Positions 5,511-39,896 of a stretch of 39,946 nt of DNA are shown here, piece by piece (within the stretch, counting starts at the first letter, position 1; each line of letters starts with the position of its first letter). The stretch comes from a bacterium (GTDB lineage Bacteria; Margulisbacteria; Marinamargulisbacteria; JAHFDA01), in the NCBI GenBank assembly GCA_023249225.1, contig JAHFDA010000023.1, positions 1 to 39,946 on the forward strand. The letters run 5' to 3'. Below the pieces are notes generated by a model. It saw only the letters and a list, made by a program, of their open reading frames with translations. It searched no databases and was not told the DNA's origin. Position numbers and translations under genes: made by a program.

Positions 5511-6424
5511 AGCGCGAAGACATCGAAAATCTTACGCGCACCGAACTGCTTGATATCGCCCGTCAGCTTAATATTCGTGGACGCAGCCTGATGAGCAAAA
5601 AACATCTTCTAAGGGAAATCCAGGAGGCCGAACGCCGCAGCTCTGGCGGAAAGTCTAAACCAAAGCTTCCTGGTGGCGCCAAGCCCGGCGCCTCTGTCAC
5701 CCAGGCTACCCGTACCAAGCACAAGCGTGCCCAACGTCGACTCATGCCACCGGCACGTGAACCCCGCAATCGTACCGAAAGTGCCAGCCGCACTGTTCCA
5801 GCCCCAGAAGCACCCTCTGCACCGGCAGTCCTCGCTCCGGCGTTAAAGCACTCCGACGTGGGGAAACTTCCGGCACAATACGGGATCACGCATCTGGTGC
5901 TGATGGGCATTGATCCAACCCATGTATATGCCTATTGGGAATTAAGGCCTGTCGATCTTGGCCGCGTTCAAGCTTTGGGAGTGGGGGATCTGGTATTGCG
6001 GCTTTATGATGTGACCGATGTTTATTTTGACGGTGCCAATGCCTGGCGCAGCGATGATCACTTTGTGGGTTACGCCAATAACTGGTACCTGCATACCGGC
6101 ATTGCAAACCGCAGTCTTCTGGCAGAAATCGGCTGGTTGCTGGCCGATGGCCGTTTTTATCCAGTGACGCGCAGCAACACGGTGCATACGCCCGCCAATC
6201 AGCCGTCAGACCGCAGCGATGCTGAATGGATGGTGGTGCACGAAGCATTCGAACAACTCTATGCCTTATCCGGTGGTTTTGTGGGCGGGCTGCCCAGCGG
6301 ACCCTCGAGCCTTACCTGGCAACAAGAATTGGTCAAAATTCGTTTGGGCGGCCCCAAGCCCGTCAGTTCACTTTCATTTGCCGGAGGCTTAAGCAGCGCC
6401 CGATTGCTCCGAAAAACCGTATGA
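5507..6424 (+). CDS. DUF4912 protein with N-terminal Rho-N/SAP-like domain
   Basis: 305-aa protein of unknown function. Residues 1-45 (ENLTRTELLDIARQLNIRGRSLMSK) look like the Rho N-terminal / SAP-type helix-extended-loop-helix fold. Residues ~46-115 are a basic then Ala/Pro-rich linker of low complexity. Residues ~120-255 match DUF4912, with the GITHLVLMGIDPTHVYAYWEL opening. The last 50 residues are Gly/Ser-rich. It overlaps both neighbours by 4 nt (ATGA), so it is made together with GalT and the branching enzyme. From that context I infer a glycogen-associated role, perhaps binding of the glucan or an enzyme, but nothing catalytic is visible. Confidence 0.8.
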   Translation: MKREDIENLTRTELLDIARQLNIRGRSLMSKKHLLREIQEAERRSSGGKSKPKLPGGAKPGASVTQATRTKHKRAQRRLMPPAREPRNRTESASRTVPAPEAPSAPAVLAPALKHSDVGKLPAQYGITHLVLMGIDPTHVYAYWELRPVDLGRVQALGVGDLVLRLYDVTDVYFDGANAWRSDDHFVGYANNWYLHTGIANRSLLAEIGWLLADGRFYPVTRSNTVHTPANQPSDRSDAEWMVVHEAFEQLYALSGGFVGGLPSGPSSLTWQQELVKIRLGGPKPVSSLSFAGGLSSARLLRKTV

Positions 6425-8037
6425 CACCCCAGGGTTACATACTCATGGTGTTGCACGCGCATCTGCCTTTTGTGCGGCATCCCGAATTTCCGTTTTTCCT
6501 GGAAGAACAGTGGTATTACGAAGCGATGATCGAAACCTATGTGCCGTTGCTGCTCATGATGCAACGGCTTTACGACGAGGGCGTTTATTTCAGGCTGACC
6601 ATGAGCCTGACGCCGCCACTGTGCGCCATGATGGAAGACGAATTGCTGGGGCAGCGTTTCCAGAAGCACTTGCACAAGCTCATCGAACTGGCCGAGCGTG
6701 AACGCGCGCGCGTAGGAGACCATTCACCCTTTACATCGGTGGTGGATATGTATCGCCGCAAGTTGCACGAGATTCGTGCTTTTTACCAGGACCGTTGGGG
6801 CGGCAAGATATTGCGGGCCTTTGCCGAGATGCAGCGCGGGGGTGGCCTGGACATCATCAGCTGCGCCGCCACACACGGATTTTTACCCCTTATGGAAATG
6901 GTTCCGGGCGCGGTGCGTGCGCAACTGGGCGTGGCTGTCGACGATTACATGCGCCATTTTGGTTGTCGTCCGCAGGGCCTGTGGCTGCCCGAATGCGGTT
7001 ACTATCCCGGCCTCGATCGCACGCTTAAAGAATTTGGCCTGCGTTATTTTTTCCTTGAGACCCATGGCGTGCTGCATGCCGACCGGCGGCCCAAATACGG
7101 GGTCTATGCGCCCTTGTATTGTCCCAGCGGCGTGGCAGCCTTTGGCCGTGACACCGAATCCAGCAAGGCCGTGTGGAGCGCCGAAGAAGGTTACCCCGGC
7201 GATTACCGTTACCGCGAGTTTTATCGCGATATTGGTTTTGACCTGCCGCTCGGGTACATTCAAAATTACATTCACCCGGATGGCATCCGGATCAACACCG
7301 GCCTTAAGTACTACAAAATCACGGGTACGGGCAATCACAAAGAGCCTTACCGTGAATCCGAAGCCCTGGCTCTGGCGGCTGAACATGCCGGCAATTTTCT
7401 TTTTAACCGCGTCAAGCAGGTAGAACATTTGCACGGCATGTTTGGACACGAACGCAAGCCGCTGGTGGTCAGCCTTTACGATGCCGAACTCTACGGCCAC
7501 TGGTGGTACGAGGGGCCGGTCTTTCTCGAACAATTTTTTCGTAAGATGCATGCCCTGCAGCAGCAGCTTCGGCCGGTCACGGCCGCCGAGTACCTGCGCG
7601 AGTATCCGCTCAATCAAAAAGCCCTGCCTTCGCAGTCGACCTGGGGAAACAAGGGTTACAACGAGGTCTGGCTCGAAAGTAGTAACGACTGGATCTATCG
7701 CCACCTGCATGTGGCCGCCGAGCGCATGATTGCGGCTGTGCAAGACTATCCGCACAGCACCGGCTTGCAGGGACGTGCCTTAAATCAGATGGCGCGCGAG
7801 TTGCTGTTGGCGCAGTCGAGCGACTGGGCCTTTATCATGAAGACGGGCACGCATGTCGACTACGCGGTGCGGCGCACACGTGAACATTTGGGGTATTTTG
7901 ACCGCCTGCACAGCACGCTGCGCGAGGGAAACATCAACGAAGCCTTTTTGCATCAGTGCGAAAGTCAGGACAATGTGTTTCCGCACATCAATGTCCGGCA
8001 TTTTTGCGCCGCCGCGCCCACGGAGCAGCGCCCATGA
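6421..8037 (+). CDS. GH57 1,4-alpha-glucan branching enzyme
   Basis: 538-aa GH57 protein with the DUF1957-type C-terminus. It forms alpha-1,6 branches by moving alpha-1,4 chains, the branching step of glycogen synthesis. It begins MTPQGYILMVLHAHLPFVRH. The nucleophile is E191 in GLWLPECGYYPG and the acid/base is D354 in SLYDAELYGHWW, at almost the same numbers as in the Thermus and Thermococcus enzymes (183/184 and 353/354). Length is typical. ATG 6421 overlaps the DUF4912 stop, and its own stop overlaps the next start. A longer in-frame start at 6226 is rejected because it would run through the DUF4912 gene. Confidence 0.93.
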   Translation: MTPQGYILMVLHAHLPFVRHPEFPFFLEEQWYYEAMIETYVPLLLMMQRLYDEGVYFRLTMSLTPPLCAMMEDELLGQRFQKHLHKLIELAERERARVGDHSPFTSVVDMYRRKLHEIRAFYQDRWGGKILRAFAEMQRGGGLDIISCAATHGFLPLMEMVPGAVRAQLGVAVDDYMRHFGCRPQGLWLPECGYYPGLDRTLKEFGLRYFFLETHGVLHADRRPKYGVYAPLYCPSGVAAFGRDTESSKAVWSAEEGYPGDYRYREFYRDIGFDLPLGYIQNYIHPDGIRINTGLKYYKITGTGNHKEPYRESEALALAAEHAGNFLFNRVKQVEHLHGMFGHERKPLVVSLYDAELYGHWWYEGPVFLEQFFRKMHALQQQLRPVTAAEYLREYPLNQKALPSQSTWGNKGYNEVWLESSNDWIYRHLHVAAERMIAAVQDYPHSTGLQGRALNQMARELLLAQSSDWAFIMKTGTHVDYAVRRTREHLGYFDRLHSTLREGNINEAFLHQCESQDNVFPHINVRHFCAAAPTEQRP

Positions 8038-10511
8038 AGGCCATAATCCTGGCCGGAGGTTTTGGCACGCGTCTGCGTCCGCTTACCATTAACATGCCTA
8101 AACCCATGGTGCCCATGGTCAACGTTCCTGTGATGGAACGGGTACTGCACCTGCTTAAAAAATATGATTTTACAGATATCCTGACCATCCTGTATTACCA
8201 GCCAGACGTGATCCGAAATTATTTTGGCGATGGCAGCCGTTGGGGCGTCACAATGACGCACGTACACACCGTCAATGATTACGGCACGGCCGGTGCGGTG
8301 CGCATGGCCCTTGATTCGCTCGATGAGCCTGTGCTGGTGATCAGCGCCGACATCGTGACCGATTTTGATCTGCAACACTTGATCGAGTTCCACCGCCAAA
8401 AACGCAGCATGGCAACCCTTAACCTCACGCGCGTGACCCAACCGCTCGAATATGGCATTGTCATCACGCGTCCCGATGGCTACATCGACCGCTTTTTAGA
8501 AAAACCCATGTGGGGGGAGGTTTTTTCAGACACCGTCAATACCGGCATCTACGTGCTCGAACCTGCCGTGCTCAAGCAAATTCCTCCCGATACCAAGTAC
8601 GACTTTAGCCGTGACCTTTTTCCAAAATTATTGGCTGCTGGAATGGCGTTTTATGGCCATATCGCCCAGGGATACTGGAAGGACATCGGTAACATTAAAG
8701 AATATGTCAGCGCCAATTTTGACTGCCTCGAAGGCCGCGTACAGGTATTGCCTGCGTTGCCACAGACCTGCGCGGGTGAAGTGCACCCTTCTGCCACCTT
8801 AAGTGGCAAGGTGTGTATTGCTGCAGGCGCGCGCATAGGCCAGCATTGCCAGATCATTAATTCGGTTCTTGGTCCGGGCTGTGTCATCGAAGATAACGCG
8901 CTGGTGAGCAACAGCATTCTGTGGCGCAATGTGGTCATCGGCCAGGGCAGCATCGTCAGAGAAGCCGTGCTTGGTGAGGGGGTGCAATGCGGCTTTAAGG
9001 TAGTGGTGGACGCAGGCGCGGTGATTGGTGATCATACCCAGCTCGGCAGTAATGTGTATGTCAAACCCTATGTGAAAATCTGGCCCAACAAACGTATCGA
9101 AGACGAGGCCACTGTGGTGCAGAGCATCATCTGGAACGAACGTCTGGCACGGCGCTTGTTTTCTTCTTTCGGTGTCTCGGGGGTAGGCAACATTGATATT
9201 ACGCCCGAATTTGCCGGCAAGCTGGGCGCTGCTTACGGGGCTTTCTTAGGCCCGGGCAAGCAGGTGGTGGTCAGCCGCGACAGCCACCGCGCCAGCCGCA
9301 TGATTCACCGCGCCATTATTTCGGGTCTTATTTCGGCGGGGGTCAACGTGGTGCATCCGGGCGACAATCCCGCTGCTGTCACGCGCCACATGGTGCGGGC
9401 CCTGTCTTGTGCGGGGGGCATCCACGTGCGCAAGTCACCGTACGAAGTGTCGGTGATTGACATTAAGTTTTTCGACGCCGGTGGCGTGGATTTGGCGGTG
9501 GCCAAAGAAAAAACCATCGAAAGTTATTATTTTTCAGAAGATTTTGCGCGCATCTCCACCGAAGAAGTAGGCAGCATCACCCAGACCTCGCAGCCCTTGA
9601 TTCAGCAGTATCAGGATACCCTGCTACAGACCGTCGATTGCGAGTTGATCCGCCGGGCACACCTTAAAGTGGTGGTCGATTACAGCTGGGGCAGTGCCAG
9701 CCTGATCTTTCCGGCCATCCTGGGCAAATTAGGTTTAGAAGTGGTCAGCCTTAATAGCAATATTGACGAAAATAAAATCAGCAAAACAGCATCTGACTTT
9801 CAACTGGGCATTGACCAGCTTTCGACCATTGTGCGCACCTTGCAGGCCAATGTGGGTATTCTGATAGACACCGGGGCTGAAAAAATCTTTGTGGTAGACG
9901 AGACCGGGCGCCTGCTCTCGGGTGACGAAGCTTTGGCCTTTATGGTCTGGGCCCGCAGCAAACAGCAACCCGGAAAGCCAATTGCCGTGCCGGTCAGTGC
10001 ACCCAGCACTATTGAAGCTCTGGCGCTCCATGAAGACTGCCCCGTCAAGCGGCTACGCACGCATCCGCGTTACTTAATGCAGGCGGCCCAAGCCCAACCG
10101 GGCATCTTTATTGGCGAGCAAAGCGGTGGTTATATTTTTTCAGAGGTGTCGCCCGTATTTGATGGCATGCTTTCGGTGCTGCGCCTGCTCGAAACCCTGG
10201 CCCGTTTTCCAGGCGGCATCCATCAAAGAGTGGCCCAGCTGCCGGCACGCGCCGTGCAGCGCAAGCGTATTCCCTGCACCTGGGACCAAAAGGGGCGGGT
10301 GATGCGTGGCCTGCTCGAAATCAAACACGGCGGCCAAATTGAGCTGCTCGACGGCATTCGCATCACGCACAACGACAGCCAGGTCCTGGTGCTGCCCGAT
10401 GCCGATAGTCCTTTCTTTTATATTCAGGCCGAAGCCGCCGAAACCGCCGAGGCCGAGGCGCTGGTGGCTGAATATTCAGGAAAGGTGCTGGCACTGCGAG
10501 ATAGTGCGTGA
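8034..10511 (+). CDS. Sugar-nucleotidyltransferase / phosphohexomutase-like fusion with a degenerate mutase half
   Basis: 825-aa fusion. Residues 1-235 are a nucleotidyltransferase with the AGGFGTRLRPLTINMPKPMVP signature (NTP + sugar-1-P to NDP-sugar). Residues ~250-375 are left-handed beta-helix hexapeptide repeats. Residues ~385-825 are phosphoglucomutase/phosphomannomutase domains I-IV. The mutase half looks dead: the phosphoserine loop, normally TASHNP, reads GGIHVRKSPYEVS (about 460-473), and the metal loop, normally DGDGDR, reads IDTGAEK (about 608-614). The sugar loop GEQSGGYI is kept. Such fusions are known as mannose-1-phosphate guanylyltransferase-like proteins. Since the locus lacks a GlgC, this enzyme may supply the glucosyl nucleotide for the adjacent glycogen synthase. 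ATG 8034 overlaps the previous stop. Confidence 0.88.
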   Translation: MKAIILAGGFGTRLRPLTINMPKPMVPMVNVPVMERVLHLLKKYDFTDILTILYYQPDVIRNYFGDGSRWGVTMTHVHTVNDYGTAGAVRMALDSLDEPVLVISADIVTDFDLQHLIEFHRQKRSMATLNLTRVTQPLEYGIVITRPDGYIDRFLEKPMWGEVFSDTVNTGIYVLEPAVLKQIPPDTKYDFSRDLFPKLLAAGMAFYGHIAQGYWKDIGNIKEYVSANFDCLEGRVQVLPALPQTCAGEVHPSATLSGKVCIAAGARIGQHCQIINSVLGPGCVIEDNALVSNSILWRNVVIGQGSIVREAVLGEGVQCGFKVVVDAGAVIGDHTQLGSNVYVKPYVKIWPNKRIEDEATVVQSIIWNERLARRLFSSFGVSGVGNIDITPEFAGKLGAAYGAFLGPGKQVVVSRDSHRASRMIHRAIISGLISAGVNVVHPGDNPAAVTRHMVRALSCAGGIHVRKSPYEVSVIDIKFFDAGGVDLAVAKEKTIESYYFSEDFARISTEEVGSITQTSQPLIQQYQDTLLQTVDCELIRRAHLKVVVDYSWGSASLIFPAILGKLGLEVVSLNSNIDENKISKTASDFQLGIDQLSTIVRTLQANVGILIDTGAEKIFVVDETGRLLSGDEALAFMVWARSKQQPGKPIAVPVSAPSTIEALALHEDCPVKRLRTHPRYLMQAAQAQPGIFIGEQSGGYIFSEVSPVFDGMLSVLRLLETLARFPGGIHQRVAQLPARAVQRKRIPCTWDQKGRVMRGLLEIKHGGQIELLDGIRITHNDSQVLVLPDADSPFFYIQAEAAETAEAEALVAEYSGKVLALRDSA

Positions 10512-30649: not shown

Positions 30650-31990
30650 ATGCGCAGATATTGGGTGCTCGCGCTGGCATGCCTGCTATTGGCATCCACG
30701 GGTTGCAAAAACAAAAACAATCAAAAAACAGAAGGTCCCGTTACGGTGCGCATGTGGATCATGCCCAACAGCGCCCAGCCTGCCAACGATCTTTTAGAGG
30801 TACTCAAACCCTTTCACGATAGCCATCCCAACATCCGGGTCGAAGTCACTTCAATAGACTGGGGCAGCGCTAAAGACAAGCTGAATTCGGCGGCCATCAG
30901 TGGCGTTGGGCCCGACATCACCCAGATTGGAAGCACCTGGGTGGGCCTATTAAGTGCCACCCGCGCGCTGGCATCGCTTAGCGAAAAAGTGCCCTCGCTG
31001 GGCGGGCCCGATATATTCTTGCCAGCGGCCTGGACCAGCTCCGGATTGGAAGGCAGCGGAGAGATCACGTCCATCCCTTGGTTTGTAGATGCACGTGTGC
31101 TGTACTACCGCACCGATGTCTTTGAAAAACTGGGCCTCACCGTTAAAGACATCGACACCTGGGAAAATTTTAAAACAACCCTTGATAAAATTAAAAAATC
31201 CCAACTGGTATTGCAAGGACAGACGGTGGATCCCTTAGGTTCTCCGGGCAGCAACGACTGGAATATTTTGCATAACATGGCCCCTTGGATCTGGGCCAGC
31301 GGCGGAGATCTGCTCAACAGCGACCACAGCCGGGCCGTTTTTAACCAGGCTGAATCTTATCAGGGAGTCAGTTTTTTTCTGGGGCTGGCCATCGACGGAT
31401 ACATTCCCAAATACTGCCTGGAACTCAACACCGCCCAAGTGGCGGCTAAATTTAACGAAGGCGCCTATGCCATGTATTTCGACACGCCGGCCCAAATTAA
31501 GAATCTGGAACTGCCCATCGAAAAGGGTGGGGCAGCCGGCACCGTGGCCGCGCGTAACTACGCGGTAGCGCTGTACCCGGCAGGACCGTCCGGGCGTTAT
31601 ACGTTTTTTGGCGGTTCCAATTTGGCCGTCTTTAAGGCCTGTGAGCATCCGGCCGAAGCCTGGGAAGTGATTGCCTATCTGGCGTCTAAACCGGCCCAAA
31701 TTGCCTATGCCAATGCCACTGGCTTTATTCCAGCCCGTCAGGATGCTTTTGCAGATCCGTTCTTTACGGAACATCCCAAACGGAAAATCTTTATCGAAGC
31801 CGTCAAGTATGGCCGCACTTATCCGTGTGTCTCCGCCATTGGCGCAGCCGAACCCGCCTTGATGCGTCACTTTGGAAACCTTTGGGCCCAGGTCAGTGGT
31901 ACCTTTGGTCCCAAACAGCGGGTAGACATTCACAAAGAACTCGATCAGGCTGTCCAGGAACTCAACATTATTATTTCGGAGAGCATATAA
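30650..31990 (+). CDS. ABC sugar-binding lipoprotein (family 1 extracellular solute-binding protein)
   Basis: 446 aa. Lipoprotein signal peptide with lipid-attachment C19 (LLLASTGC) followed by a Lys/Asn linker. The family-1 binding fold starts VTVRMWIMPNSAQPANDLLE and shows GPDITQIGSTW, SIPWFVDARVLYYRTDVFEKLG and YTFFGGSNLAVFKAC. It captures an oligosaccharide outside the inner membrane and delivers it to the two permeases just downstream (3-nt gap). The ligand is unknown; the GH26 and CBM genes nearby point to a beta-glycan product. Confidence 0.92.
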   Translation: MRRYWVLALACLLLASTGCKNKNNQKTEGPVTVRMWIMPNSAQPANDLLEVLKPFHDSHPNIRVEVTSIDWGSAKDKLNSAAISGVGPDITQIGSTWVGLLSATRALASLSEKVPSLGGPDIFLPAAWTSSGLEGSGEITSIPWFVDARVLYYRTDVFEKLGLTVKDIDTWENFKTTLDKIKKSQLVLQGQTVDPLGSPGSNDWNILHNMAPWIWASGGDLLNSDHSRAVFNQAESYQGVSFFLGLAIDGYIPKYCLELNTAQVAAKFNEGAYAMYFDTPAQIKNLELPIEKGGAAGTVAARNYAVALYPAGPSGRYTFFGGSNLAVFKACEHPAEAWEVIAYLASKPAQIAYANATGFIPARQDAFADPFFTEHPKRKIFIEAVKYGRTYPCVSAIGAAEPALMRHFGNLWAQVSGTFGPKQRVDIHKELDQAVQELNIIISESI

Positions 31991-31993
31991 GCC

Positions 31994-32947
31994 ATGAAAA
32001 CAGCGGCACCCCCTTTGCTGGCACAAATGCGCAGGCATAAGCACGCCTATGCCTTTATTCTGCCCACGCTGTGCGCCATGTTTCTGATCCATTTTGTGCC
32101 CATGTTGCAGGGTATTTACATGAGCTTTCTGCGTTTAAATCAAATCACCTTGCGGCAATACCTGGGCGCACCGTTTATCGGGCTGCGCAATTATGTCGAC
32201 ATCTTGTTTAACCCCCAGAGTCTGGTACGTATTTCGGGACTGGGTCAGGCTGCCAAGGTAACGCTGATTTACGCCTTTGTGGTGACGCTGGCCACCATTG
32301 CCCTGGGGCTGGGCATGGCCCTGCTGCTGCACCGCGAATTTAAAGGCCGCACTGTGGCACGCACCTTGTTTTTTTTGCCCTGGATTATTCCACAGTTTGT
32401 GGTGGGTCTGCTCTGGGGTTTTATGTGGCAGAAAAACGAGGGGATCATTAATTTTGTGTTGCACGACTGCCTGCACCTGCTAAGCGACAAACCTTTTTGG
32501 CTGATCGGCAACAATACCCTATGGGCCATTATCATTCCCACCGTATGGCGTGGCTGGCCCTTTGCCATGATCATGCTGCTTGCGGGCCTGCAGCAGATCA
32601 GTGACGAATATTATCAGGCCGCCAAAATTGACGGTGCCAACGCCTGGCAGCGTTTTTGGCACATCACCCTGCCGCTGTTAAAACCGGTTTGGGCCACATT
32701 GCTTTTGTTCGGCATGATCTTTAACGTTTATTCTTTTAACATTGTGTACATGATGTTTGGCCTGGGGGCGGGATACCCGGGTCCGTGGGGCGACCTGATG
32801 ATGACCAATATTTTCCGTGCCAGTTTTGGCGCTTACCGTTTTGGCGCCGGGGCGGCGGCCTCGGTGCTGCTGATGTTGTTTATGATCGGCATGGTACTGG
32901 TGTGGAATCACTACTTTAAAAAAGACGTGACGGCAGGCAATCTTTGA
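31994..32947 (+). CDS. Sugar ABC transporter permease, MalF-like
   Basis: 317 aa with six TM helices. The EAA coupling loop is EYYQAAKIDGANAWQRFWHITLPLLKP (about 203-230), which docks on the ATPase. It belongs to the MalF/UgpA group without the large P2 loop. Its stop overlaps the start of the second permease (TGATG), so the pair is translationally coupled. No ATPase gene is in the window, so a shared MsmX/UgpC-type ATPase encoded elsewhere is inferred. Confidence 0.92.
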   Translation: MKTAAPPLLAQMRRHKHAYAFILPTLCAMFLIHFVPMLQGIYMSFLRLNQITLRQYLGAPFIGLRNYVDILFNPQSLVRISGLGQAAKVTLIYAFVVTLATIALGLGMALLLHREFKGRTVARTLFFLPWIIPQFVVGLLWGFMWQKNEGIINFVLHDCLHLLSDKPFWLIGNNTLWAIIIPTVWRGWPFAMIMLLAGLQQISDEYYQAAKIDGANAWQRFWHITLPLLKPVWATLLLFGMIFNVYSFNIVYMMFGLGAGYPGPWGDLMMTNIFRASFGAYRFGAGAAASVLLMLFMIGMVLVWNHYFKKDVTAGNL

Positions 32948-34718
32948 TGTTCGGACAATACCTGTCCCGGGTTTTGTTTGCCTCGGTGCTTCTGATCCTG
33001 CTGGCGGTGATGCTTTTTCCGATTGGCTGGATGGTGATCACCAGTTTAAAAAGCAACAACGACATCCTGGTGGGGCACTTGTGGTTCACGCGCTACAGCA
33101 ATCAAATTCAGGCCATGTTCATGCACAATGGGAACATGTATATGGCTACCGAAAACGGTGCCTACCTGCGTTCTGATGGCAAAACCCATGCGTTTAAAAC
33201 CCTTTCCAAGGGTCAAGAGGTGGCTTCGGCTTTTTTTAAGGCCCCCGGACGTGAACTCATTCAGGCCACCAAAACCGACGTGCGCGTGCGTGACGCGGTC
33301 GATGGCCAGGAACTGCGCCAGATCCCCGTGGTGGATCTGCCCTGGCTCTGGCGTGAAAACATCAAGTCGAGCTGCGTGGCAGTCGTGAGTCACCGGGCCT
33401 ACGTGGGGCATCTGGTACTCAAGTCGCCCGAAGAAGAACATCAAAGTTATCCGGGTCAGGGAGTGCTCGAGGGTTTGCAGATCGTGGATCTTAAGGAAAA
33501 CCGTTACTTAAAAACGCTCAAACAAGACGAAGGACTGCCAGAAAACAACATTACGGCACTCTTGCCCTGGGGTGCTGATCTCTGGGTCGGAACCACCCGG
33601 GGTCTGGCGCGTGTGCGTCAGGATCAAGTGGTACAGGTGCTGGGCGCAGCACAGGGTGTGCCGGGCATGGTGCAGTGTCTGTGGAGCGACGGTACAACCT
33701 TGTTTGTGGGCACTGAAGATGGTCTGGTGCTGCTCGATGCCGATGGCGCGCTGATCGGTCGGCTGGGCCAGTCCCAGGGTTTGCTCAAGGATGACGTGCT
33801 TAGTATCGCTGGCGCAGGCAGCTTGCTTTTTGTCGGCGGTCCCACCGGTCTTTCAGTTTACGACCGCGCGCTTGAACGCACGGTACACGTGCTTGAACGC
33901 TCGGGCCAACAGCCCTGGAAGGTCACCGCTCTTTCTGTGGCGGGTGATTTTTTGTGGGTGGGCACTGCCGATGGGTATGTCCGCAAGCTGCAACGCGAGC
34001 GTTACAGTGTCGAAGACGAAAACCGGGCGCCCGAAACGCCCTACAATATCCGTTGGACCAACTATGTGCAGCTTTGGAAAAACATCAGCTTTGGCACCTA
34101 TTTTAAAAACAGCCTGATCATTTGCCTGATCACCACCCTGATTGCCATGACGCTGGCCACCTTGGCGGCTTATGCCTTGTCGCGTTTTGAGTTTCCGGGC
34201 AGCAATCTTTTTAGCACGGCCATTCTGGCAACGCAAATGATTCCAGGCCTGATGTTTCTGATTCCCATCTACCTCATGTTTGTTAAATTTCATGAGTGGT
34301 TCGGCATTCAGTTCATTAATTCGTACAAGGGCGTCATCTTTGTCTACAGCGGATTCTGCGTAGCTTTTTTGCCTCTATTCCGGTCAGCTTAGAAGAAGCC
34401 GCGCGCATAGATGGCTGCAGCCGTTTCGGGGTTTTCTGGCGCATCACGCTGCCACTGGCCATTCCGGGCATCATTGCCACGGCCATTTTTATTTTTTTAA
34501 CCGCCTGGGATGAACTGATGTTTGCCACGGTCATGTTGCAAAAGAAGGACTACCTCACCATACCTTTAGGTATTAAGCTATACATCGGCAATCATCAAAA
34601 CCGCTTCGACTTGATGATGGCCGCCGCCACAGTGGCCACACTACCGGTGATTGTCTTGTTTGTGCTGGTACAAAAATGGTTTGTCAAAGGCCTGACAGCG
34701 GGAGCAGTCAAAGGGTAA
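32947..34718 (+). CDS. MalG-like sugar permease with an inserted beta-propeller; -1 frameshift at 34365-34371
   Basis: TM1 is residues ~8-32. Then about 300 extracytoplasmic residues (~45-355) show seven repeats of the Reg_prop type; the clearest are LWVGTTRGLARV, LFVGTEDGLVLL, LFVGGPTGLSVY and LWVGTADGYVRK. The usual MalG core resumes at ~373 (FGTYFKNSLIICLITTLIAM). The first frame stops at 34392 after 481 codons. Slipping back one base on T-TTT-TTG (34365-34371) joins it to ASIPVSLEEAARIDGCSRFG and on to a stop at 34716-34718, about 590 residues in all. The downstream part holds the EAA loop (ARIDGCSRFGVFWRITLPL) and the last TMs, so without the shift the permease could not couple to an ATPase. 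Programmed frameshift, transcript slippage, decay and a missing T in the sequence are all possible. Confidence 0.8.
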
Positions 34719-34731
34719 TAAGAGTTGAACT

Positions 34732-36408
34732 ATGAATAAAAAAATGTGGGTGGTGCTTGTCGGTTTGCTGTTAGTGCTTCTGCTTCTATGTGTGCCACAG
34801 ATCTTTTCTTTTGACCGGGTTAAAACGCCAGTGGCATGGACGGCGGCGGCTCCGGCACAAGGCGTTTATGTAGGTATCTTTCGTCAAGATGCTCCCAGGC
34901 GCATGGATTTTATAAAATCCTTCGAAAAAGATTACGGGCTGCATCCCAGTATCGTGATGTGGTACCTTGACTGGAACAGCAAGTTTCCTAAAAAAGAAGC
35001 CTTGGAAGTGATCCAATTTAATGCGGTGCCACATCTGGTGTGGGAACCCTGGATTTGGGGCGACGAACAACGGATCAATCTTAAAAATATTATTGCCGGC
35101 GAGTGGGACAGCCATATTCGCGAATTTGCCAAGGATGTGAAATCTTTTGACCATCCCATCTTTATCCGTTGTGCGCACGAATTTAATATCGAAGGATACC
35201 CCTGGGGCCTGGTCAAAAATAACCGTGACCCCCAGGAATACATTCAAGCTTACCGGCACATCGTGGATATTTTCCGCACGGTGGGCGCGCGCAATGTGAT
35301 CTGGGTCTGGTCGCCGATGAACTACAGTTATCCAGACGCATCCTGGAACGATTTCATCAAGGCTTACCCGGGTAACGACTATGTCGATTGGATTGGCATC
35401 GATGGTTACAACTGGGGCAGCACCCAGAGCTGGAGCCGCTGGCAGAGCTTCGAGGACTTGTTCCGCGAAAGCGTGCTACGTGTGTCAGGTGCTTTTCCGG
35501 ACAAACCGATCATGATCGCCGAGTTTGGCAGTGCTTCGGCGGGCGGTGACAAGGCCGAGTTTTTCCGCCGCATGCCGGGCTATCTTAAGAGCAGCTTAAA
35601 ATCAGTGCGCGCCATCACTTACTTTGATTTAAACAAGGAAGCTGATTGGCGCATCGATTCAGCCCCCAAAACGGCCGAAGCCTTTCATCAGGTTTTGGGC
35701 GATCCCATTTTTTTGCATGCGCCTGACGGCATTCTGGCGCTTAAGGGAACGGCGTCCAAGCTACGCCAAAGACAGCCTTTATTGGCATTACGCGCTGTAG
35801 CGCCTGTAAAAGTGAACGGCGCGTTGACCGAATGGGGTCAGGCTAAGTTTGTGTCGCTGGCCTCCTGGGATGACGTTGAAACCGGACCCGATTGGCAGGG
35901 TAAACAGGATCTGTCTGGCATGTTTGCACTGTTATGGTCGCCGCAATTTCTGTATGTGGCGGCCAAAATTTATGATGATAAACCGTTTAATAATTCCCAC
36001 AGCAATGAGAACTTGTGGAACGGCGATGCGGTCGAACTGACTTTTGCAGGCAACGCCCAGGCCGACCCCCAGCGCAAGGAGTATATGACGGGAGATTTTC
36101 AGATCGGCTTTGGTATTGGCAATGCCAAAGAGGCCAAACCCAAGGTATGGGAATGGAAACAGCATCGCCGGGCACTGGCAGAGGTTCAGTACGTGGTAGC
36201 ACCCATGAAGGGTGGCTACATCATCGAAGCCGCCATTCCGCTGGAGTTGCTCGCGCATTTTAAGCCCACGCCAGGCCTTGAAACCGGTTTTAATTTTGCT
36301 TTCGACGATGCCGACGATGCCCAAGGGCGCAGGACCCAGATGCTGTGGGCCGGAAACTATCTGTTTTACAAGGACCCCAGCGTCTGGGGTCGGGTGCATT
36401 TTCAATGA
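34732..36408 (+). CDS. Exported GH26-type glycanase with C-terminal CBM9-like domain
   Basis: 558 aa. An N-terminal hydrophobic helix (residues 5-25) serves as signal or anchor. Residues ~43-325 are a GH26-like (beta/alpha)8 barrel: acid/base E150 in FIRCAHEFNIEGYPWG and nucleophile E264 in IMIAEFGSASAGGDK; WVWSPMNYSYPDASW is also typical. GH26 members act on beta-mannan or beta-1,3/1,4-glucans. Residues ~350-558 resemble CBM9 (VNGALTEWGQA, NLWNGDAVELTFAG, YIIEAAIPLELL). It begins 13 nt after the permease, so cleavage and uptake are probably coupled. Exact substrate unknown. Stop overlaps the next start (ATGA). Confidence 0.85.
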   Translation: MNKKMWVVLVGLLLVLLLLCVPQIFSFDRVKTPVAWTAAAPAQGVYVGIFRQDAPRRMDFIKSFEKDYGLHPSIVMWYLDWNSKFPKKEALEVIQFNAVPHLVWEPWIWGDEQRINLKNIIAGEWDSHIREFAKDVKSFDHPIFIRCAHEFNIEGYPWGLVKNNRDPQEYIQAYRHIVDIFRTVGARNVIWVWSPMNYSYPDASWNDFIKAYPGNDYVDWIGIDGYNWGSTQSWSRWQSFEDLFRESVLRVSGAFPDKPIMIAEFGSASAGGDKAEFFRRMPGYLKSSLKSVRAITYFDLNKEADWRIDSAPKTAEAFHQVLGDPIFLHAPDGILALKGTASKLRQRQPLLALRAVAPVKVNGALTEWGQAKFVSLASWDDVETGPDWQGKQDLSGMFALLWSPQFLYVAAKIYDDKPFNNSHSNENLWNGDAVELTFAGNAQADPQRKEYMTGDFQIGFGIGNAKEAKPKVWEWKQHRRALAEVQYVVAPMKGGYIIEAAIPLELLAHFKPTPGLETGFNFAFDDADDAQGRRTQMLWAGNYLFYKDPSVWGRVHFQ

Positions 36409-37298
36409 CGCTTCCGCTGCCGGTGGAGACCCAGGTATCCCGTTCCACGCCGCAAAAATCTTTTTACAAGGGCATTGTGGTTATTGAATCGCCGACAAAG
36501 GCTCCCGATGCATCTGTGGGTGAGCCTATAAACCTCAAGCAAAATCAGAAGTCTTCACGCGGCTGGCTGCTTTTGTTTATGAGCTTGTCGGTTGTTTTAA
36601 TTGCTTTAACCCTATACGCAGCCCAGATGTATCAAAATTTGCAGCGTCAAATTCAAGCCACGCGTGATCAGCTGCAACAGCAGCAGCGCGCGCAGCAATT
36701 TGCCCCTGTGCCGCCACGCGAGGCCTGGGCGCTGCCCTTTACCCCCGAAAACTTTAAAAAACAGTGGTGGCATTTTGATCGTCTAAATTGCACTTGGTTG
36801 CCCGAAGCGGTCTCCGAAACTTTCTTGGGCCCACACAGCCTTGAGTTGCGGGGCCAGATCCAAGGCTGGTATGGCGGGGGCCTGGGAACCTATCTGGGCA
36901 TGGATGCGCGCGGCTACACCCATTTGTCGCTAAACGTTTTTGGCTATGGCCCAGGCAGCGGAATTCTAAAGATCGAACTGGTCGACGATGACAACAAAAA
37001 TTACCGGGCCGATGTCAATGCTCAAAAACCCGGAACAGGCGATCAGGACGATGTTTTGACGTACGCGCTGCCAGTGACTTGGCAGGGATGGAAGCACATC
37101 AATATCCCGTTGTTGGCCTTTAGCGATGCCAATCCCGGAGCTGGGGACGATCTTTGGAATCCCAGCCAGTGGCTTGGCTCGGGGGGTTTGTTGCAAATGC
37201 AGTGGATTGCCTTAGGCAGCCAAGCCACACAACCTTTTCATATGCAGATTAACAAACCTAGATTTATTCAAATAAAAGAAAATGCCTCAAAAAAGTGA
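36405..37298 (+). CDS. Membrane-anchored CBM11/CIA30-like carbohydrate-binding protein
   Basis: 297 aa. A cytosolic N-terminus of ~48 residues is followed by a TM helix (~49-72), a Gln-rich coiled coil (QNLQRQIQATRDQLQQQQRA) and then an extracytoplasmic beta-sandwich. From ~155 to 270 it matches the next gene closely (WYGGGLGTYLGMD, SGILKIELVDDDNKN, WQGWKHINIPLLAF, GSGGLLQMQWIALG). No hydrolase residues are seen. ATG 36405 overlaps the GH26 stop. The coiled coil suggests oligomers holding glycan near the transporter. The family call rests on pattern only. Confidence 0.7.
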   Translation: MTLPLPVETQVSRSTPQKSFYKGIVVIESPTKAPDASVGEPINLKQNQKSSRGWLLLFMSLSVVLIALTLYAAQMYQNLQRQIQATRDQLQQQQRAQQFAPVPPREAWALPFTPENFKKQWWHFDRLNCTWLPEAVSETFLGPHSLELRGQIQGWYGGGLGTYLGMDARGYTHLSLNVFGYGPGSGILKIELVDDDNKNYRADVNAQKPGTGDQDDVLTYALPVTWQGWKHINIPLLAFSDANPGAGDDLWNPSQWLGSGGLLQMQWIALGSQATQPFHMQINKPRFIQIKENASKK

Positions 37299-37345: not shown

Positions 37346-38005
37346 ATGAAATTTTTTAGATTGATCGCCAATGTAACTTTATTTTTCTGTTTATGCCATT
37401 CGGTGGCCCTGGCTGCGCGTATGGTCGACGATTTTGAAGACGGCAATATCGCCAAGAATCCCGAGTGGTGGAAGTTTGGCCGCCTGATTACCGATGTCGT
37501 GACCAACAAAGGCAAGGCTCCCAAGGGCGAGACGCTGGGCAAGCGCGGTTTGCTGATCGAAGGTTCCACGCGCAACTGGTACATCGGCGGATTGGGGACT
37601 TACTTGGGAATCGATTCATCGCCTTACACCCACCTGGAACTTTTTATTTTGGGAACCGGCAAGGATTCTGGCCAGATTAAAATTGAACTGTGGGACGATG
37701 ACAACAAAAACTGGAAAGCCGAAGCGGATCCAAAAAAAGATTATTCTCCGATCTACGACGATATTTTTACCTATGCGTTGCTGGTCGACTGGGAAGGCTG
37801 GAAGCGCGTATCCATTCCGTTGCGTGACTTTACCGACAACAATCCGGGCGTGGGCAACGATGCCTGGGATCCGCAGCAGCTCGATGGCAGCGGGGGCCTC
37901 TTGCAGATGTCCCTGGTGGCCTTGGGACGCGGCGCCACCGGTAAGATTGCAGTCACCCTTGATGAAATAAAATTGAGCGTGCCCAAAACTGCGGAGAAGA
38001 AATGA
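37346..38005 (+). CDS. Secreted CBM11/CIA30-like protein, paralogue of the preceding gene
   Basis: 219 aa with a Sec signal peptide (1-~23, FFCLCHSVALAA). The mature part opens RMVDDFEDGNIAKNPEWWKFG, as CBM11/CIA30 domains do, then shares the block WYIGGLGTYLGID ... KIELWDDDNKNW ... WEGWKRVSIPLRDF ... GSGGLLQMSLVALG (residues ~77-198) with the anchored neighbour. This points to tandem duplication followed by loss or gain of the anchor. Probably a periplasmic or surface glycan-binding protein. Stop overlaps the next start (ATGA). Confidence 0.72.
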   Translation: MKFFRLIANVTLFFCLCHSVALAARMVDDFEDGNIAKNPEWWKFGRLITDVVTNKGKAPKGETLGKRGLLIEGSTRNWYIGGLGTYLGIDSSPYTHLELFILGTGKDSGQIKIELWDDDNKNWKAEADPKKDYSPIYDDIFTYALLVDWEGWKRVSIPLRDFTDNNPGVGNDAWDPQQLDGSGGLLQMSLVALGRGATGKIAVTLDEIKLSVPKTAEKK

Positions 38006-38508
38006 ACTGGCTTATTTTATGCCTGACGGTCTGGGTGACCTGCGCAAACCGAGCTTGGGCCGTGGATGTATCTGTGACCGCCAAAGTCACCGTAGAGGAA
38101 GTGTTTACGCTTTCGGTAGACCGCGACGACATTGACTTTTACCAGGTTAAACCCGGAGATCAGCGTTACGATATTCCGCCTACCGGCATCCGCGTGATCA
38201 CCAAGTCAAATTCGGGTGACCCCTGGTATTTAAAGCTGCGTGTCTCCGAGCCTTTAAGCAATGGCCGCAGCATCATTTCCAACGAACATTTTGGCTGGTA
38301 TGGCTGGACCGAGGGTTCGGGTACCTGGTACGGCACCGGCAAGGAATACCTGTTGGAGACGCCGTCATTGGCCTACCGCAGCACAGCATCCGAAGGCTTA
38401 AATGCCGACCCAGGTGTGGCCAACGTATTTAAATTTAAACTGGATGTGCCTAAAAACCAGCAGGCGGGCCACTACGAAACCACCGTGCAGTTTATTTTAA
38501 CGGAATAA
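38002..38508 (+). CDS. Small secreted beta-sandwich protein A, WxL-like ending
   Basis: 168 aa with a signal peptide (MNWLILCLTVWVTCANRAWA). The mature chain is beta-rich, with VDVSVTAKVTVEEVFTLSV, a DPWYLKLRVSEPL strand and the C-terminus AGHYETTVQFILTE. The WYL strand and the GxYxxxxxFxLTE ending are shared with the next protein and resemble WxL domains of Gram-positive surface proteins. The resemblance is by eye only. It overlaps the CBM gene by 4 nt. Confidence 0.6.
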   Translation: MNWLILCLTVWVTCANRAWAVDVSVTAKVTVEEVFTLSVDRDDIDFYQVKPGDQRYDIPPTGIRVITKSNSGDPWYLKLRVSEPLSNGRSIISNEHFGWYGWTEGSGTWYGTGKEYLLETPSLAYRSTASEGLNADPGVANVFKFKLDVPKNQQAGHYETTVQFILTE

Positions 38509-38512
38509 TCTG

Positions 38513-39091
38513 GTGTGCCGCTTTAGACTGGCCATGTGCGCGTGCCTGGGCCTTTGGGTTCTTCAACCGGTCGAGGCTTCGCTGATCCTGTCGAGTTCCG
38601 ATATTTCCAATGGCGGCACGCTTGAACTGGGCACCTATGTTCCGGGCCAGTCTGATTACAATCTTCCGGGGGCGTATACCACCAATAACAGTTCGGCCTA
38701 TCCGGGTATTGCCTTGCGCTGTCAAAACGACACGGCCGTAGATTGGTATCTCAACCTAAGTGGTACAACCCTGACTCAAACCAGCACGGGTGCCACGCTT
38801 CCACGCACTGCCTTTCAGTCATTGCCGACCTATGCGCAGTACAGCAACAGCGCCGCCACGCCGCCCGATTCCAATAACAACGCGGTCTTGCGCGCAAATT
38901 TGTACACCACCACCTTTGCATCCGTAAGTTCAACGCCCATCACCCTGTACCGCAGCCTGTCCGGCACCGATTACAACATCACCACCGGCAGCAACTATAT
39001 TCAGGTCAAAACCCAGTTTGCCGTCATCGTGCCCGGCAGCGCCGCGCCCGGACTTTACAGCTCTAGCCTAACCTTTACACTTACAGAGTAG
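38513..39091 (+). CDS. Small secreted beta-sandwich protein B, WxL-like ending
   Basis: 192 aa. The start is GTG 38513, 4 nt after the previous stop. Signal peptide 1-~22 (ACLGLWVLQPVEA). The mature chain is rich in Ser/Thr/Asn/Tyr, like fimbrial or surface-fibre subunits. It has VDWYLNLSG and ends APGLYSSSLTFTLTE, parallel to protein A. A single cysteine (in ALRCQND) remains in the mature chain. Likely a surface subunit; no close family named. Confidence 0.6.
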   Translation: MCRFRLAMCACLGLWVLQPVEASLILSSSDISNGGTLELGTYVPGQSDYNLPGAYTTNNSSAYPGIALRCQNDTAVDWYLNLSGTTLTQTSTGATLPRTAFQSLPTYAQYSNSAATPPDSNNNAVLRANLYTTTFASVSSTPITLYRSLSGTDYNITTGSNYIQVKTQFAVIVPGSAAPGLYSSSLTFTLTE

Positions 39092-39095
39092 TTCT

Positions 39096-39896
39096 ATGAC
39101 ACAAAAAATATTCAAGGGCCTTAGATTTCACTTTTCACTTTTCACTTCTTACTTCTTACTCCTTACTTCAGCTTGGGCCTTTAGTTTTGGCATCGATCCA
39201 TCGCACCTGACCTTTGAAAGCAGTCCAAGTGAAACCGTATTGCAGACCCTTTATGTGGTCAATTCGTCTGCCAGTACGGTCAAACTCATGTTGTCGGTCG
39301 AGGAATGGACCTTGCAAGCCGATGGGGCCAAGCAGTTTGGTGCAGTTGGCAGCAGTCCCTCGGGTTGCGGCGCGTGGATCGAGATTGAACCCAAAACCTT
39401 GCAGTTGACGCAAGGCGAAAAAAAACCGGTCACGGTCACGTTGAAAACACCCGACACGTCGGTCGGAGGTCACCAGGCCGTGGTTTTTGCACAGAACGTA
39501 CCAGAAACCCCTGCCGATCAGGAGGGCCGGGTGCAACTTTTAGGCAAGGTCGGTGCCCTCATTTACCAGGAGACCCTGGGTAGCACGCGGCATGACATTA
39601 AAGTGAGCAGCGCTGGACTGGTGGCCGAATTCCGTAACCAGGCTTTAACGCTCAATCTTGAAAACACGGGTAATGCGTATACGCTTGCCACTATTCGGGC
39701 CCTCTTGCTTAGGCAAAGTGATGGTGCCCTGCAGGGCGAACTTGAACTCGAGCCCTTTAAGTCACTGCCTGGCCAGCAGAAGACTGTCTTAGTGGCTTTT
39801 AAGACTCCACTCCCTCCGGGTCAATACATCTTACTGGTGACGGTTGAACCCGAAAAAGGTGAACCGGTGGTGATCGAAGAAAACTTTACCCTTTAA
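39096..39896 (+). CDS. PapD-like / DUF916-like secreted chaperone or scaffold
   Basis: 266 aa. Signal peptide residues ~5-28, encoded by imperfect heptanucleotide repeats. The mature N-terminal half has an Ig-like chaperone layout: FGIDPSHLTFESSPSETVLQTLYVVNSS, then CGAWIEIEPKTLQLTQGEKK, PVTVTLKTPD and GGHQAVVFAQN. The second half is another beta-sandwich (LTLNLENTGNAY, LPPGQYILLVTVEP). PapD-type chaperones complete or cap subunit strands, and WxL-interacting proteins of Gram-positives are built similarly. Placement after two small secreted subunits supports a chaperone or scaffold role. It is too divergent to name. Confidence 0.6.
   Translation: MTQKIFKGLRFHFSLFTSYFLLLTSAWAFSFGIDPSHLTFESSPSETVLQTLYVVNSSASTVKLMLSVEEWTLQADGAKQFGAVGSSPSGCGAWIEIEPKTLQLTQGEKKPVTVTLKTPDTSVGGHQAVVFAQNVPETPADQEGRVQLLGKVGALIYQETLGSTRHDIKVSSAGLVAEFRNQALTLNLENTGNAYTLATIRALLLRQSDGALQGELELEPFKSLPGQQKTVLVAFKTPLPPGQYILLVTVEPEKGEPVVIEENFTL
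39125..39166 (+). repeat. Six imperfect heptanucleotide repeats inside the signal-peptide codons
   Basis: Units ATTTCAC, TTTTCAC twice, TTCTTAC twice and TCCTTAC follow one another without gaps. They encode the FHFSLFTSYFLLLT hydrophobic core of the chaperone-like protein. Seven is not a multiple of three, so gain or loss of one unit would shift the frame. Confidence 0.8.

Follow-up and report, generated by a model that had tools for sequence, protein, structure and literature searches.

The window, the whole stretch of 39,946 nucleotides analysed here, is a contig from a bacterium of the phylum Margulisbacteria and carries genes for a predicted sugar ABC importer followed by genes for putative glycan-active proteins (Table 1). 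The ORF for a MalG-type permease spans 32947-34392 on the + strand, and its ATG start overlaps the stop codon of malF. After the first transmembrane segment (TM1) comes a brief conserved stretch, TSLKSNNDILVG, and then an insert of 326 residues, in agreement with the sequence-only reading, which had put about 300 residues at this place. Relatives without an insert have a loop of 15 residues at the site, as expected from the claim that MalG permeases normally have a short loop here, and the insert occupies this same loop in all relatives aligned. The topology rule supports the proposed extracytoplasmic position of the insert, given the positive N-terminus before TM1 and an insert free of hydrophobic segments. 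A Pfam scan of the window ORF found no signalling domain, be it a histidine kinase, a response regulator or Y_Y_Y.

Table 1. Features of the importer locus in the window
Feature	Position	Strand	Evidence
Solute-binding protein, lipoprotein-like, CUT1 type	30650..31990	+	SBP_bac_8 1.1e-36, SBP_bac_1 2.8e-36; 56% identical to the G006 orthologue
MalF-like permease, 317 aa, no large P2-type insert	31994..32947	+	BPD_transp_1 5.4e-22
N-terminus and TM1 of MalG-like permease	32947..33075	+	Hydropathy 2.77 over 19 residues, net positive N-terminus; alignment with 18 relatives
Beta-propeller insert between TM1 and TM2, 326 residues (44-369)	33076..34053	+	Blades 1 and 4-7 clear, 2-3 degenerate
MalG core, first part (TM2 onward, to ...VIFVYS)	34054..34349	+	Aligned with relatives; final clear homology before the frame break
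Out-of-frame tail to premature stop	34350..34392	+	25 nt missing relative to all 34 relatives
MalG core remainder, other frame (EAA loop, last TMs, GLTAGAVKG end)	34344..34718	+	BPD_transp_1 4.9e-18; profile A2 positions 478-597, 243 bits
Exported GH26-CBM9 protein	34732..36408	+	Glyco_hydro_26 1.9e-14, CBM9_1 8e-23; HE and EFG motifs present
Family c2, first copy: CBM11/CIA30-like, N-terminal membrane anchor, true start uncertain	36345..37298	+	Alignment A4
Family c2, second copy: exported CBM11-like protein	37346..38005	+	Alignment A4

The GH26 and CBM neighbours that had been named are indeed there, with the gene for the GH26-CBM9 protein adjoining malG. The HE and EFG motifs of this protein are presumably the GH26 catalytic positions. 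Among the members of family c2 there are weak CBM_11/CIA30/SGBP_B matches. In 15 of the 20 neighbour loci examined, a c2 gene follows downstream of malG, either directly or with one or two genes in between. Further genes of the window code for a 1,4-alpha-glucan branching enzyme of the GH57 type (6226-8037) and for an 851-residue protein made up of a nucleotidyltransferase, hexapeptide repeats and a phosphoglucomutase/phosphomannomutase (7956-10511). Past c2 there are three short, exported-looking genes with no Pfam match (38002-39896).

The MalG-like core said to follow the insert does so up to about residue 468; the rest lies in another frame (34344-34715) and the ORF ends at 34392. The gap between the Y-S and I-L-R codons measures 27 nt in 34 of the 34 relatives compared and 2 nt in the window, and therefore a 25-nt deletion is the simplest reading. 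With these 25 nt absent near 34350, the window copy of the gene cannot be read through the EAA loop in one frame. Relatives have BPD_transp_1 with the EAA loop (L008, 5e-22; L004, 4.3e-17; also L013, L012, L022 and L020). Programmed frameshifting at the T-run was rejected as the sole cause, since the window is short of eight residues and a further base when set against each of the relatives compared. The gap is either a real mutation or an assembly error. Only if the assembly is at fault would the window copy be expected to yield a functional MalG. If real, the deletion is probably recent because no other interruption is present in the insert or the 3' part.

To characterize the insert we compared it with domain and structure profiles. 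Pfam Reg_prop gave 25.4 bits for the window insert alone and 19.1 bits for the whole ORF against a cut-off of 20.4, and whole relatives scored under the cut-off or were silent; the Reg_prop scan of control genomes also misses the propellers of the family itself. A profile of 13 related inserts, the window included, matched the sensor propellers of hybrid two-component systems (HTCS), with E-values of 9.9e-32 for 3ott/3va6, 2e-30 for 4a2l and 3.4e-23 for 3v9f, and the window insert by itself matched 4a2l at 4.7e-4. A single-blade model that excluded the window sequence found five blades in the window with a sum of 58.8 bits, while 500 shuffles reached at most 2.1 bits. These scores, with the profile E-value of 9.9e-32, rule out a chance repeat pattern. 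The same model detects six or seven blades in full-length relatives, and cutting the insert by alignment gives seven units. Blades 2 and 3 of the window are degenerate by the blade model, matching the two degenerate blades first suggested. Pfam PorZ_N_b_propeller matched 10 of the 13 family members weakly. AlphaFold run on the single sequence predicted an all-beta insert at low confidence (pLDDT 56, compared with 48.7 for the ORF), and Foldseek searches with this low-confidence model returned propellers as the top PDB matches at a TM-score of about 0.5. On these sequence comparisons the insert is assigned as a Reg_prop-like beta-propeller homologous to the HTCS sensor propellers, in support of the Reg_prop-type propeller of the sequence-only reading.

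To determine how common such permeases are, we searched with the insert profile for further inserts after TM1, as that reading had recommended. Half of the phylum's 74 genomes (37) match the profile. Within the window's own class, the insert is found only in the window genome and G006. The full insert, 321-346 residues long, is present in families f18-f21, f23-f25 and f27-f30. Family f26 has a shorter insert of 202-204 residues that corresponds to blades 1-3 and 7, and family f22 has a 15-residue loop and no insert. Beyond the phylum, 299 Bacillota genomes yielded no insert-bearing MalG. The matches in them were all weak and to generic propellers, and the ten of these looked at in detail had no MalG core. 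Viral contigs gave no match, no record of the plasmid collection spans 80% of the query, and a scan of genome contigs with the window protein found only an ordinary permease.

The two families with a reduced or missing insert belong together. In a tree of the core only, f22 and f26 form one clade with support of 95/99 when both outgroups are included and 100/99 without the long Scybalocola row. An ancestral insert-free state of f22 was considered. The clade of Thermus with f22 is rejected with a p-AU of 0.0016; the grouping of Thermus with f22 and f26 (p 0.063 in the AU test) is not firmly rejected. The AU tree test favours secondary loss of the insert. The simplest history is one of seven blades, then four after loss of blades 4-6, then none, all in one clade, and in that clade the insert is dispensable. 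The malFG cluster lies near peptidyl-tRNA hydrolase-like and Mfd-like genes (c4 and c5, identities assigned by eye from sequence) at L060-L065, L071 and L072. The recurrence of this neighbourhood in several families suggests vertical inheritance of the malFG cluster.

We also examined the partners of the permease. An OB_MalK protein is encoded at G000:C121, and the partner permease and binding protein adjoin malG, so the importer parts are present. A single MalK-type ATPase was found in 12 of the 13 genomes searched. All 21 genomes searched for a CUT1 binding protein have one, mostly a single copy, some with a second SBP_bac_8 match. From these counts of MalK-type ATPases and CUT1 binding proteins, the propeller-bearing system seems to be the main CUT1 importer of these bacteria or the only one. 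The unfused MalF of relatives is mostly 311-325 aa long. The binding-protein gene adjoins malF in f1, f7, f19, f21 and f23 and lies elsewhere in other families. Family f18 (G039) encodes a fusion of the binding protein (SBP_bac_1/8) to MalF of 821 aa (L066:5592-8057), adjoining a propeller-bearing MalG. In f22 the binding protein is not fused to MalF, and its gene lies at another place.

The glycan-active neighbours differ between families. GH26-CBM9 proteins are neighbours in f1, f7, f22 and f26, those of the GH8 type in f19, f21, f23, f24 and f29 (by Pfam for two, by sequence clustering for the rest), and c2 in most families. Directly upstream of malF, the usual place of the binding protein, a gene for a single-domain GH26 is found in f26 and f22 (L061:10515-11468, L062:1382-2317 and L063:10023-11030); the protein at L061 is lipoprotein-like, and the binding protein of these families is encoded elsewhere. 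Very large proteins of 2017-2506 aa are encoded directly downstream of the propeller MalG at L067 (9178-15231), L068, L069 and L070. The one at L067 has a GH8 domain, with little else of its length matched. In the plasmid collection, TT_RS10345 (WP_011174518.1) on pTT27 of Thermus thermophilus is among the best MalG-core matches from beyond the phylum. Because of the glycan-active neighbours and the GH1 beta-glucosidase beside the Thermus match, the substrate of the importer is probably a beta-linked glycan oligosaccharide.

The insert changes much faster than the rest of the permease. Between the window and G006, identity is 22% in the insert and 67% in the core. In the closest pairs dN/dS is about 0.09-0.11 for the insert and about 0.02 for the core. 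The insert is therefore under purifying selection although it diverges several times faster than the core. Most of its conserved positions hold glycines or core hydrophobics, and no candidate site or pocket shared across the family is evident among them. Together with the fast divergence, this argues for a scaffold with partners that differ between lineages rather than for a single common ligand.

We tentatively propose, at a probability of roughly 0.45, that the propeller would serve at the channel mouth as a docking module for the binding protein and/or glycan-handling partners. The locus encodes a type I (CUT1) ABC importer, and the propeller would stand on the MalG side of its periplasmic face, near the place where the binding protein docks. 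In the E. coli MalFGK2E complex, the N-lobe of MalE reportedly interacts chiefly with MalG (PMC3150292), so a domain in the P1 loop would sit close by. There the propeller may hold the binding protein and/or the lineage-specific GH26-CBM9, GH8 and CBM11-like proteins by the channel mouth. It would be an accessory, selected for in most families and, in one clade, cut to four blades and then lost. Counting against docking, f22 does without the insert, and the insert persists while the enzymes encoded next to it change between GH26, GH8 and none. We nonetheless favour it over glycan binding or sensing, a pure clamp for the binding protein, and a passenger domain.

The sequence-only reading had a glycan sensor or docking platform in mind. 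As a sensor or glycan-binding module, the propeller would take up oligosaccharides at its entry face and would thereby concentrate the substrate or gate transport. Homology to the HTCS sensor propellers, the GH and CBM neighbours, and the binding of disaccharides on the entry faces of the BT4663 propellers (PMC5121618) are all consistent with a glycan-binding module. We consider it unlikely, as neither the structural character of the conserved positions nor the low identity of the insert to that of G006 fits a shared pocket; for a sensor specifically, the gene also has no signalling domain and one clade dispenses with the insert, so that this part of the earlier proposal is not supported. If the propeller were instead a stand-in for the P2 loop of MalF, it would solely clamp the substrate-binding protein, much as MalF-P2 contacts MalE in E. 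coli (PMC3150292), and MalF here has no P2-type insert. Yet f18 keeps the insert despite a binding protein already fused to MalF, f22 has none despite an unfused binding protein, and the propeller is in MalG rather than MalF. Recruiting the binding protein is thus not its whole role, because f18 has both, and we regard a pure clamp as improbable.

Least probable of the four is an old loop insertion that was tolerated, is constrained only to fold, and has been eroding from seven blades to four and to zero. The rapid divergence, the mostly structural conserved residues, and the three-blade reduction and loss in f26 and f22 could all be read as the decay of such a passenger domain, but every other insert-bearing family has retained 321-346 residues and close pairs have a dN/dS of about 0.1. 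Returning to docking, a wider proposal can be made, which we hold to be doubtful: a phylum-wide class of sugar ABC importers in which the MalG propeller captures glycans or glycan-degrading enzymes at the channel mouth and so couples hydrolysis to uptake, with stepwise loss of whole blades (seven, four, zero) in one lineage.

No paper naming a propeller in a MalG permease was found in the open-licence literature, and to this extent the statement that no such system has been described was right. A large MalG insert is nevertheless known in kind. In MalG1 and MalG2 of the Thermotogales, TM1 and TM2 are separated by a hydrophilic region of about 500 residues that reportedly resembles no known protein (PMC2246101, Noll et al. 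2008), and mal1 of T. maritima encodes an apparent manno-oligosaccharide transporter (PMC2246101). Like the permease of the window, they combine a large TM1-TM2 insert with an otherwise normal MalG core; their insert is longer, about 500 residues compared with 326, and the comparison is with the published description only. In the open-licence literature we did not find descriptions of the propeller identity, the spread across the phylum or the seven-four-zero series.

Similar to the HTCS propellers of BT4663 (4a2l), BT4673 (3ott) and 3v9f, the insert has a sequence of the Reg_prop type with seven predicted blades, is predicted to be extracytoplasmic and is tied to glycan use. In contrast to these, there is one propeller instead of two, with no Y_Y_Y spacer and no kinase, and it lies inside an ABC permease. 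The N-terminal propeller of PorZ, a component of type IX secretion and not of a transporter, has a weak likeness by Pfam. Thermus TT_RS10345 shares 53.7% identity with the core over the matched 42% of the query and is in an operon with its beta-glucosidase, but its loop has 15 residues and no insert. P2 of E. coli MalF is likewise an extra periplasmic domain of a maltose-type ABC permease that contacts the binding protein. It lies between TM3 and TM4 of MalF and has about 180 aa (PMC2246101), whereas here MalF has no P2 and the propeller is between TM1 and TM2 of MalG. Of the additional domains on the outer side of sugar ABC importer permeases, MalF-P2 has been studied most. The MalG propeller, with natural sister families of seven, four and zero blades, provides a ready series for testing the function of such domains, and may offer a fold to test for the MalG insert of the Thermotogales.
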